Source: Methylocystis sp. Sn-Cys
GTDB lineage: Bacteria > Pseudomonadota > Alphaproteobacteria > Rhizobiales > Beijerinckiaceae
Length of the DNA stretch: 64,000 nucleotides
Direction of reading: 5' to 3'
Assembly (NCBI RefSeq): GCF_016745395.1
Contig: NZ_JAERVJ010000002.1
Span: 62,001-126,000, forward strand
Part shown: positions 9,847-58,649 of the stretch, piece by piece
How the letters are laid out: each line of letters starts with the position of its first letter
Position numbering within the stretch: the stretch's first letter is position 1
Position numbers and translations under genes: made by a program
Notes under the pieces: model-generated
The model's database searches: none
Seen by the model: the letters and a program-made list of their open reading frames with translations, nothing else
What the model was told of the DNA's origin: nothing

Positions 9847-9879
9847 ACGCCGTCTCCCGTGAGCCACTCTGCTTGCCAC

Positions 9880-10640
9880 ATCCCTCCCTCCCCCTTGCGG
9901 GGAGGGGCAGGGGTGGGGGTCGACAATCTCGGGCGTGAATGCGGCCGGGCCCCACCCGACCCGGCTTCGCCGGGCCACCCTCCCCGCGAGGGGGAGGGAT
10001 GGGGATCGCGGGCGAGATTGTCCTCGGCGCGGTTGCGAAGGGCGTCTCTCGCTCGCGCGTCCAAGTTATGCATCGCCGGCGCCCGCAGCATCCCTCCCTC
10101 CCCCTTGCGGGGAGGGGCAGGGGTGGGGGGCGACAATCTCGGGCGTGATCGGGCTCGGGCCCCACCCGGCCCCGCTGCGCGAGGCCACCCTCCCCGCAAG
10201 GGGGAGGGATGGGGATCACGGGCGAGAGTGTCGTCGGCGCGTTTGCGAAGAGCGTCTCTCGCTCGCGCGTCCAAGTTATGCATCGCCGGCGCCCGCAGCA
10301 TCCCTCCCTCCCCCTTGCGGGGAGGGGCAGGGGTGGGGGTCGACAATCTTGGGCGTGATCGGGCTCGGGCCCCACCCGGCCCCGCGGCGCGAGGCCACCC
10401 TCCCCGCAAGGGGGAGGGATGGGGATCGCGGGCGAGATTGTCCTTGGCGCGGTTGCGAAGGGCGTCTCGCGCTCGCGCATCTAAGTTACGTATCGCCGGC
10501 GCCCGCAGCATCGCTCCCTCCCCCTTGCGGGGAGGGGCAGGGGTGGGGGTCGACAATCTCGGGCGTGACTGGGCTCGGGCCCCACCCGTCCCGGCTTCGC
10601 CGGGCCACCCTCCCCGCAAGGGGGAGGGATGGGAATCGCG
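9880..10640. repeat. 210-bp tandem repeat array (about 3.6 units) of family B palindromes
   Basis: Units begin at about 9881, 10091, 10301 and 10511 with a constant 210-bp period, and the last ends after about 130 bp. Each unit has a CCCTCCCCCTTGCGGGGAGGG hairpin, a GGGGTGGGG/CCCCACCC pairing region, a second CCCTCCCCGCAAGGGGGAGGG hairpin, and a spacer of about 80 bp containing CAAGTTATGCATCGCCGG. Units are nearly identical, so amplification is recent. The array fills the gap between nadB and nadC and would be transcribed with the operon. Confidence 0.95.
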
Positions 10641-17835: not shown

Positions 17836-17847
17836 CCTTCTCCCAGC

Positions 17848-17929
17848 CGTCATTGCGAGCGAAGCGAAGCAATCCAGGGCCGCAACGCGGCTCTGGATTG
17901 CTTCGTCGCTTACGCTCCTTGCAATGACA
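17848..17929. repeat. Family A palindromic repeat, copy 1
   Basis: CGTCATTGCGAGCGAAGCGA at the left end and its near complement ending CTTGCAATGAC at the right, with inner arms CAATCCAGGGC / CTCTGGATTG. About 82 bp. Nine further copies occur in the window. Confidence 0.9.
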
Positions 17930-52439: not shown

Positions 52440-52994
52440 ATGAAACTTACCCGCCGCCTGCTGCTCGCTACCGTGGCTTTTTCGGCCGCGCTGGGAACCG
52501 CTTCGATCGTCCGCGCGGAAGACGAGCTTCTTTACCTCGACACGAAAGACGGACGCGTCACCATCAAGCTGCGGCCTGATCTGGCGCCCAAGCATGTCGA
52601 GCGCATCAAGCGCCTCGCCAAGGAACACTTCTATGATGGGATCGTCTTTCACCGCGTGATCGACGGCTTCATGGCGCAAGCCGGCGACCCGGAAGGCACG
52701 GGCATGGGCAGCTCGCGCTATCCCGATCTCAAGGCCGAGTTCAGCGATCTGCCCTTCAAGCGCGGCACGGTCGCGATGGCCCGCCAGCCGGGCGACAAGG
52801 ACTCCGCCAATTCGCAATTCTTCATCTGCTACGCCGACGCGCCGCAGCTCCAGGGCAAATATACGATCTGGGGCGAGGTGATCTCGGGCATGGACGTCGT
52901 CGACAAGATCAAGAAGGGCGACAAATCCAACAATGGCATGGTCGTTGCCCCGGACAAGATCGTGAAGATGCGCGCCGCGGGCGACGAAAGCTAA
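52440..52994 (+). CDS. Periplasmic peptidyl-prolyl isomerase (cyclophilin)
   Basis: 184 residues: signal peptide (to about VRAED, 22), then a minimal cyclophilin domain with YDGIVFHRVIDGFMAQAGD, MARQPGDKDSANSQFFIC and IWGEVISGMDVVDKI. Catalyses proline isomerisation during folding of exported proteins. Paired with a cytoplasmic paralogue 145 bp downstream. Confidence 0.92.
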   Translation: MKLTRRLLLATVAFSAALGTASIVRAEDELLYLDTKDGRVTIKLRPDLAPKHVERIKRLAKEHFYDGIVFHRVIDGFMAQAGDPEGTGMGSSRYPDLKAEFSDLPFKRGTVAMARQPGDKDSANSQFFICYADAPQLQGKYTIWGEVISGMDVVDKIKKGDKSNNGMVVAPDKIVKMRAAGDES

Positions 52995-53138: not shown

Positions 53139-53597
53139 ATGACTGAAGCCGCCGACACCATGACGCTGGAGACCACCAAGGGCCCGGTCGTCATCAAACT
53201 CCGCCCCGATCTCGCGCCCAAGCATGTCGAGCGCATCAAGAAGCTCGTTTCCGAGGGCTTCTATGACGGGATTGTCTTCCATCGCGTGATCGAGGGCTTC
53301 ATGGCCCAGACCGGCTGCCCGCGAGGCACCGGCACGGGCGGTTCACAATATCCGAACCTGGAAGCCGAGTTCAATGACGCGCCGCATCTGCGCGGAACCT
53401 GCTCCATGGCGCGCGCGTCGCACCCCGACACCGCTAATTCGCAGTTCTTCATCTGCTTCACCGACGCCCGTTTCCTCGATCGCCAATATACGGTGTGGGG
53501 CGAGGTGATCTCCGGCATGGAGAATGTCGATAAGATCAAGCGCGGCGAGCCGGTGAAGGATCCCGACAAGATCATCAAGGCGACGCTGGGCGGCTGA
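53139..53597 (+). CDS. Cytoplasmic peptidyl-prolyl isomerase (cyclophilin)
   Basis: 152 residues, no signal peptide. Over 60% identical by eye to the upstream paralogue: KLRPDLAPKHVERIK, YDGIVFHRVIEGFMAQTG, NSQFFICFTDA and VWGEVISGMENVDKI. Probably arose by tandem duplication, with loss or gain of the signal peptide. AAGGA precedes the ATG. Confidence 0.92.
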   Translation: MTEAADTMTLETTKGPVVIKLRPDLAPKHVERIKKLVSEGFYDGIVFHRVIEGFMAQTGCPRGTGTGGSQYPNLEAEFNDAPHLRGTCSMARASHPDTANSQFFICFTDARFLDRQYTVWGEVISGMENVDKIKRGEPVKDPDKIIKATLGG

Positions 53598-53749: not shown

Positions 53750-53861
53750 TCGACGCGGGCTCTTCGCAGCGAAAGAGCCCCCGGCGGTCTCCGACCACCG
53801 ACCTCCCGGCAAGCGGGGGATGGCGCGCCTCGCCTGCCGCCCGTTTGATCGAGCAACAAAC

Positions 53862-55001
53862 ATGCGCGTCGATCTCTTCGACTTCGAGCTTCCCCAAGAC
53901 CGCATCGCGCTGCGGCCCGTAGAGCCGCGCGATGGCGCACGCATGCTCGTCGTTCCGCCGTCAGGCTCTTTAGAAGACCGGATCGTGCGCGACCTTCTCT
54001 CCTATTTGCGGCCCGGCGACGCTCTCGTCATCAACGACACGCGCGTCATTCACGCGCGGCTTTCGGGAAAGCGCATTCGCGGCGAATTGAGCGCGGGCGT
54101 CGAGGCGACGCTGATCGAGCGGCTCGACGCATCACGCTGGCGCGCGCTCATGCGCCCGGCAAAGAAGCTCGTCGTCGGCGACGAAATTCGTTTCTTCCGT
54201 CATTGCGAGCGAAGCGAAGCAATAGAGAGCGCCAACCCGACTCTGGATTGCTCCGTGGCTGACGCTCCTCGCAATGACGAGGCTGCGTCCCTTGTGGCTC
54301 ACGTCGAGGCGAAAGGCGCGGAAGGCGAGATCACTCTGAGTTTCGCCCTCTCTGGCCCCGCTCTCGACGCAGCAATCGAAGCCTTCGGCGAAATGCCTTT
54401 GCCGCCTTACATCGCCGGCAAGCGGGCGGCGGATGAGCGCGACGAGACGGACTATCAAACGGTTTTCGCGCGCGAGGCGGGCGCCGTCGCCGCGCCGACG
54501 GCGGGGCTGCATTTCACGCCGGCGCTCCTTTCAAAGATAGAAGCGATGGGCGTGACGCTTCACCGCGTGACGCTCCACGTCGGGGCCGGCACCTTTCTGC
54601 CCGTGAAGGCGGATGACACCGACGCGCATAAAATGCACGGGGAATTCGCCCGCATCGACGCGAACACGGCCCAGGCGTTGAACGCCGCGCGCAGCAAGGG
54701 CGGCCGCATCGTCGCCGTCGGCACGACGGCATTGCGCACGCTCGAAAGCGCTGCGAGCGAGGAGGGACAGATCCTTCCTTACGCTGCGCGTACGAGCATC
54801 TTCATCACGCCGGGCTATAAATTCCGCGCGACGGACATGCTGCTCACCAATTTCCATTTGCCGCGCTCGACGCTCTTCATGCTGGTCTGCGCCTTTTGCG
54901 GCGTCGAGCGCATGAAGGCCGCCTATGCGCACGCCATTGCCAATGGCTATCGCTTCTATTCCTACGGCGACGCCAGCCTTCTCTACCGCGCCGACCGATG
55001 A
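53862..55001 (+). CDS. queA: tRNA preQ1 ribosyltransferase-isomerase QueA with in-frame repeat insertion
   Basis: Adds the cyclopentenyl ring precursor to preQ1 in tRNA using SAM. 379 residues from the ATG at 53862 ([11 protein letters not shown]); conserved [49 protein letters not shown] and [10 protein letters not shown]. Residues 113-140 ([20 protein letters not shown] and following) are encoded by a family A palindrome at 54198-54279, placed between the conserved VGDEIRF and [10 protein letters not shown] segments, so the protein is about 30 residues longer than its relatives there but the frame is intact. It overlaps the next gene by ATGA. Confidence 0.94.
54198..54279. repeat. Family A palindromic repeat inside queA (copy 7)
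   Basis: CGTCATTGCGAGCGAAGCGA at the left and CTCCTCGCAATGACG at the right, inner arms CAATAGAGAGC / CTCTGGATTG. It is read through in frame. Confidence 0.95.
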
Positions 55002-58256: not shown

Positions 58257-58649
58257 CGCCGTATATCCTCCCCGCTTGATCGATACGAGATCCGCTCGAT
58301 TGGTTCGGCGCCATCCCCGACGCTCGCGCCGTTTGGATACACAGGGTATCACCGCCGTCATTGCGAGGAGGCGGAGCCGACGAAGCAATCTAGGGCCGCA
58401 TCGCCGCCCTGGATTGCTTCGCTTCGCTCGCAATGACGGGCGCTGGTTTTGCTCTGGATTCCCGATCGCTCGCTTAAGCGAGCGTCGGGGATGGCGCCGG
58501 TCCAATCAAGCGAATCTCGTATTAATCAGTCATTAATCCTACCAAGCTCCGACACGCTTTTTTAAAGACAAGATTCACGCGCGAAGCCTAGCAAGATGAG
58601 AACAGCCCGAGCGCGGCCCGGGCTGCTCTTGCCTGATAGGAAATCGAAC
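58257..58649. other. Intergenic region filled by a composite repeat
   Basis: The nested D/A element (58283-58524) fills most of this gap. The remaining 125 bp before the next gene contains an AGCCCG...CGGGCT hairpin at about 58606-58631 and the gene's ribosome-binding site. Confidence 0.6.
58283..58524. repeat. Composite element: family D (MITE-like) with family A copy nested inside
   Basis: Left arm ATACGAGATCCGCTCGATTG...CGACGCTCGC (58283-58328) and right arm GCGAGCGTCGGGGATGGCGC...AATCTCGTAT (58478-58523) are inverted copies of about 45 bp. A full family A palindrome (58356-58438) sits between them. Confidence 0.85.

Follow-up and report, generated by a model that had tools for sequence, protein, structure and literature searches.

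An in-frame palindromic repeat as a probable passenger in a length-variable loop of Methylocystis QueA

The queA gene of Methylocystis sp. Sn-Cys (53862..55001, + strand, 379 codons plus stop), which encodes the S-adenosylmethionine:tRNA ribosyltransferase-isomerase, contains an in-frame palindrome. All positions refer to the window, the 64,000-nucleotide stretch of DNA that was analyzed. The palindrome (54198..54279, + strand) is an 82-nt inverted dimer of CGTC-tagged, REP-like units. With a probability of roughly 0.8, we consider it a passenger that was inserted into a length-variable loop of a working QueA. According to this interpretation, a CGTC-tagged REP-type inverted dimer would have entered the loop between two QueA strands, either in a Methylocystis ancestor or in the donor of the allele. 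The ribosome would read through the hairpin, and QueA would fold with about 28 additional residues in a disordered loop. The loop would be a neutral passenger, which may persist since clean in-frame removal is rare. Drift would cause the palindrome to decay, so that the hairpin becomes weaker, and the frame would be held through selection on the downstream part of QueA.

The queA frame is open from the ATG at 53862 to the stop codon at 54999-55001 (379 aa). The open reading frame as listed begins 14 codons further upstream, at 53820; the start was taken as 53862 because the conserved QueA sequence starts there. The protein matches PF02547 (Queuosine_synth) with 402.7 bits, covers the full-length domain and has the conserved residues. 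There is a single queA in the genome, and the adjoining tgt also has an open frame. QueG, which catalyzes a later step of the queuosine pathway, was found in all six genomes searched. As the first-pass annotation had stated, the palindrome can be translated in frame without a stop. It encodes residues 113-139 completely, and contributes the first base of codon 140. Since the terminal CAATGACG closes one frame per strand, the open frame alone is unsurprising, and four of the six frames are open in 103 of 150 dimer copies. The point that needs explanation is that the host gene is still in frame and under selection. Also in the window, two adjacent genes (52440-52994 and 53139-53597), presumably peptidyl-prolyl isomerase-like, share stretches of 71% and 79% identity, and look like a tandem duplication.

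The queA palindrome is a copy of a repeat family of the window, as had been proposed, with 87% identity between 54197-54278 and 17847-17928. Other copies of the dimer in the window are located at about 17847, 18964, 37343, 39412, 42408, 58356, 63634 and 63782. The unit pattern CGTCATTGCGAG-N4-GCGANGCAATCCA has nine matches in the window when up to three mismatches are allowed, and none in 100 window shuffles at the same tolerance. A covariance model of the dimer, built from 15 copies, was run on nine genomes, with 150 candidates scored per genome, so that high copy counts are lower bounds. At least 150 dimer copies are present in the genome of the window (G000, 4.02 Mb), and the copy in queA scores 85.3 bits (E 5.5e-18). 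Passing copies number at least 149 in G002, 113 in G009, 60 in G011, 54 in G031 and 48 in G023, and 2-4 in each of G021, G026 and G010. In the aligned copies, a short arm and a dissimilar long arm are joined as an inverted dimer, and both arms have the CGTC tag on the outside and the CCA tail on the inside. In queA, the short arm (54198..54226, + strand) consists of the CGTC tag, the stem and a tail that reads AGA instead of CCA. The long arm (54243..54279, - strand) has the CGTC tag, the stem and the CCA tail. An Rfam search with 54000-54500 yielded nothing near the gathering score, and two matches at chance level (E 4.4 and 7.4, one of them across the element) were dismissed.

One dimer copy of the window is embedded in a unit (58277-58528) with 51-bp terminal inverted repeats, which are 88% complementary and 150 nt apart. 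In the G000 genome, 19 copies with scores of 86.7-87.5 bits, among them C8:949803, C13:245271 and C14:125033, have a near-identical core, and 14 of the 19 are identical over 84 nt. A longer common stretch, of 122-249 nt, is found in 17 of the 18 others of this set when they are compared with C8:949803. A composite MITE-like unit that carries the dimer thus seems to have multiplied recently. A second palindrome family, CCACCCTCCCCG...GGGGAGGG, occurs in an array of 210-bp units at 9879-10598 of the window, with 91-93% identity between units, and recurs at 1734.

Dimer copies within genes are rare. Copies were classified as intragenic when both 150-nt flanks looked coding in one open frame, a criterion with a sensitivity of 88%, as determined for positions within those 181 of 203 long ORFs that looked coding themselves (the other 22 were left out). 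Only one clear intragenic copy, the one in queA, was found among the 150 examined in G000. At a lax threshold, ten frames in eight copies pass, queA included, the seven others weakly; C18:179151 and C1:67050 could be N-terminal in-gene cases. With one of 150 copies passing, an abundance of in-gene copies as in Rickettsia is not supported for G000, at least for the 150 copies scored, a set from which older in-gene copies may be missing. The dimer family thus appears to be normally kept out of genes, with QueA as the exception.

For comparison with relatives, 51 QueA sequences were aligned. They comprise all 35 QueAs from 37 genomes of the same genus, with that of the window among them, and 16 of the 23 QueAs that other families of the order provided; the 7 of 58 QueA-bearing genomes that were left out all belong to other families. 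The element is present in four of the 35 same-genus QueAs, from G000, G002, G009 and G023, in each case as an open 82-nt insert at the same codon site and in the same phase. The remaining 31 same-genus QueAs of the alignment and all 16 from other families are without it. Repeat-free relatives aligned with the window QueA are without the extra residues, in agreement with the earlier proposal that these residues were added by the palindrome. When the insert-bearing QueA stretch was searched against 397 genomes of the order, no further element-bearing QueA was found among the matches listed; 326 genomes had no match, and from the genus the matches listed show G000 and G010 only. A literature search found no report that pairs queA with a palindromic element. 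The QueAs of G008 (L032) and G028 (L057), two genomes of 2.1-2.2 Mb with the same genus label, are just 59% identical to the window QueA, and the genus label may therefore be loose.

The QueA of G025 (C1:453667-453710, L049) carries a different dispersed palindrome, in frame and in the same loop. When up to three mismatches are allowed, the pattern of this palindrome has 22 matches in the genome of G025, one of which is the copy in queA, and the reversed control pattern has no match there. A BLAST search with the G025 insert against the available DNA of G000 gave no match.

The orientation of the element differs among the carriers. The short arm comes first in G000, G002 and G023, and the long arm comes first in G009; the element is open in the QueA frame in both orientations. 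At C8:515067-515149 of G000 and L246 of G002, the flanks are collinear, and the dimer aligns much better when it is inverted (score 142 vs 70). This is the one inverted dimer in 20 filled orthologous pairs between G000 and G002, with queA counted. The case indicates that in-place inversion of dimers happens, and the G009 orientation is thus explicable without a second insertion, though this is not proven. Most simply, it would have arisen by in-place inversion between the dimer arms.

The number of insertions is a separate question. We favour a single insertion, followed by allele exchange between species. Two independent insertions at one site, in the G000/G002 and in the G009/G023 lineages, would also be compatible with a passenger role of the element, and we give them somewhat less than even odds. 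They would explain the results for rpoB and for the C-terminal part of queA (13 species): both are at odds with a clade of the four carriers (rejected with AU p 0.005 and 0.038, respectively), and the best trees for both place the empty G011 with G000/G002. The entry of a different palindrome family into the same loop in G025 also points in this direction. In view of the rpoB result, a single vertical insertion requires loss or allele exchange in G011. However, the carrier clade has the equal best likelihood for the 5' part of queA, and is rejected neither for the stretch beside the insert (AU p 0.31) nor for the complete queA body (AU p 0.125). The carriers are alike in position and phase of the insert, and in the preceding residues, which are GD[E/D] in all four compared to GDL in G011, G031, G021, G026 and G010. 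The loop of G011 resembles those of the other four genomes of the latter group, and all five also have an ACLxG[A/V]LD stretch, which is missing in all four carriers. As this stretch is missing in short empty loops as well, for example in G001 and G024, the argument from shared absence is only moderate.

In G002 (L130) and G009 (L128), a dimer is found about 20 nt past the rpoB stop codon. The same spacer has other sequence, in part another GC-rich palindrome, in G011 (L124) and in G000 (L127), the sister of G002. The patchy presence of the element is not peculiar to queA. It is tempting, but speculative, to regard the QueA loop as a recurrent landing place in Methylocystis for palindromes of two unrelated families, one of them in both orientations and still in frame, with an inserted allele that moves between species by recombination, and as an evolutionary test bed for the origin of protein sequence from selfish palindromes.

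The location of the insert in the protein is consistent with the passenger interpretation. An AlphaFold2 model (32 aligned QueAs, mean pLDDT 88.6, pTM 0.86) places it in a hairpin (54183..54314, + strand) that is formed by strand 108-111, the length-variable loop with the insert and strand 144-151. Between the strands, residues 117-137 have pLDDT values below 50, and the model suggests that they are probably a disordered surface loop. The loop has 4-18 residues in the 46 QueAs without either palindrome. It is extended to 33-34 residues in the carriers of the dimer, and G025 has a loop of 28. The solved QueAs 1yy3, 1vky and 1wdi were the sole structure matches at E <=0.001. The TM-scores are 0.51-0.69 and the rmsd values 8-10.5, presumably as a result of domain placement.

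Strong purifying selection acts on QueA both upstream and downstream of the insert. Outside the element, dN/dS is 0.108 for the G000-G002 pair and 0.099 for the G009-G023 pair, and it is 0.106-0.124 in four pairs of empty alleles. For G000-G002, the values are 0.105 before and 0.107 after the insert. The pre-insert part thus evolves as coding sequence, which argues against a translation start after the element, a scenario that had been named as one that would refute the original claim. Among the other 50 QueAs, 109 columns are near-invariant (uniformity of at least 97%). The window QueA conforms to every one of them, as do G009 and G023, and G002 departs from them in one. The inserted peptide behaves differently, at least in the one species pair and the six changed codons on which the comparison is based. 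In G000-G002, five of the six changed codons in the element alter the amino acid, compared to 20 of 76 outside (Fisher p 0.009), which fits an unconstrained peptide.

Alternatively, the inserted peptide could have been recruited, so that it alters the activity, tRNA binding or stability of QueA and is kept by selection. The insert is kept in four species with a constant length of 82 nt, and all four inserted peptides start with RHCE and end with RND. Moreover, the element has changed less than the third positions of queA (7 of 81 sites vs 65 of 343). Nevertheless, recruitment appears unlikely. The changes within the element are mostly amino-acid changing, its centre varies freely among the carriers, it is flipped in G009, and the segment is modelled at very low confidence. 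Other orthologous dimer copies diverge about equally little: the divergence of the element between G000 and G002 is 0.084, compared to 0-0.159 (mean 0.076) in 18 same-orientation orthologous copies, although this comparison is biased because the pairs were chosen around high-scoring copies. Gaps are present in four of these 18 copies, and the queA element has none.

It is still less probable that the RNA or DNA hairpin, and not the peptide, matters, for instance by tuning queA-tgt expression. In its favour, the outer arms are still complementary in all four carriers, and the fold z-score is -5.3. However, of the 150 hairpins compared, only one is weaker than that of the queA copy (-37.5 kcal/mol vs a median of -54.9 kcal/mol). 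The hairpins in G002 (-36.6 kcal/mol) and G023 (-41.7 kcal/mol) are weak too, and the one in G009 is stronger (-51.3 kcal/mol).

Finally, the first-pass annotation had considered both that the repeat supplies peptide without destroying QueA, which agrees with the data, and that this queA is damaged and merely tolerated, a reading that, like translation from behind the element, is very improbable, since nothing favours it except the insertion itself, whereas dN/dS of about 0.1 before as well as after the insert, the conservation of 109 of 109 near-invariant columns, the single queA, the open tgt frame and the presence of QueG argue against it. To judge from the sequence, the peptide should be made and the enzyme should work.

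Methylocystis is a free-living methanotroph, unlike the obligate intracellular Rickettsia. By mode of life, the queA element can be considered, by analogy, a Rickettsia-type in-frame palindrome. As for the Rickettsia palindromic elements, there is an in-frame insertion of a dispersed palindrome into a conserved gene, relatives are without the insert, and the gene is still selected. The Rickettsia elements are predicted to be compatible with protein fold and function, according to two papers (PMC10969869, PMC3733652). One of them gives a length of about 150 bp and 44 insertions in R. conorii, and reports that almost half of them lie within reading frames (PMC10969869). In contrast, the Methylocystis dimer has 82 bp and a single clear intragenic copy among 150 examined. 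The parallel to Rickettsia drawn in the first-pass annotation is thus valid in kind, but not in frequency.

By sequence, the element appears close to the CGTC-1 REPs, and R. conorii CGTC-1 has been equated with RPE-6 in the paper that describes them (Di Nocera 2013, PMC3733652). As characterized there, CGTC-1 REPs have a CGTC tag, a stem that starts with A-T pairs and a CCA tail, and form inverted dimers (PMC3733652). The same source describes CGTC REPs as mostly intergenic, with some dimers or groups in genes, where they add 20-30 residues, and as having no known dedicated transposase (PMC3733652). The Methylocystis dimer is alike in its CGTC tag, A-T stem start, CCA tail and mostly intergenic location. 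CGTC is found at both outer ends of the dimer, and is unpaired in three of four unit folds; partial pairing is seen in the short arm from queA, which is degenerate. The family consensus has the CCA tail, and so does the long arm from queA, with AGA instead in the short one. The stem may differ, with five contiguous and 2-3 inner pairs and a loop of 3-4 predicted for the Methylocystis unit, compared to a stem of 8-9 and a loop of 4 in CGTC-1. The at least 150 copies in G000 are full-length inverted dimers, as found with a search model of the dimer only.

The Methylocystis dimer also resembles the RAYT-mobilised GTAG REPs and REPINs, which are inverted pairs of short palindromes, but lacks the GTAG tag. 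A Y1 transposase domain was found in two of nine genomes; the match in G000 is partial, and the one in G010 contains a stop. The other seven, including the element-rich G002 and G009, had no match, and mobilisation by a Y1 (RAYT-type) transposase is thus unsupported. With respect to Y1 transposases, the dimer is in this way like the CGTC-1 REPs.

In-frame palindromes inside proteins have precedents in Rickettsia and in several REP-rich species. Intragenic REPs listed in the CGTC REP paper include cases in tRNA pseudouridine synthase genes (PMC3733652). The main text of this paper does not name Methylocystis (PMC3733652). In the Methylocystis case, one site has been held through species divergence and in both orientations; the one similar case in the paper is recB of two Xanthomonas species, which has different REPs at about the same site (PMC3733652). 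In the passages considered, both papers leave open whether in-frame inserts affect proteins (PMC3733652, PMC10969869). With five insert-bearing loops (four with the dimer, one with the other palindrome) and 30 without in one genus, the ageing of such inserts can be followed. The picture that emerges is that of a fully constrained gene with an apparently unconstrained peptide and a weakened hairpin, in both orientations, and of a loop that a second palindrome family has entered as well. The question of whether protein sequence can be gained from repeats without harm thus becomes directly testable in a free-living genus.
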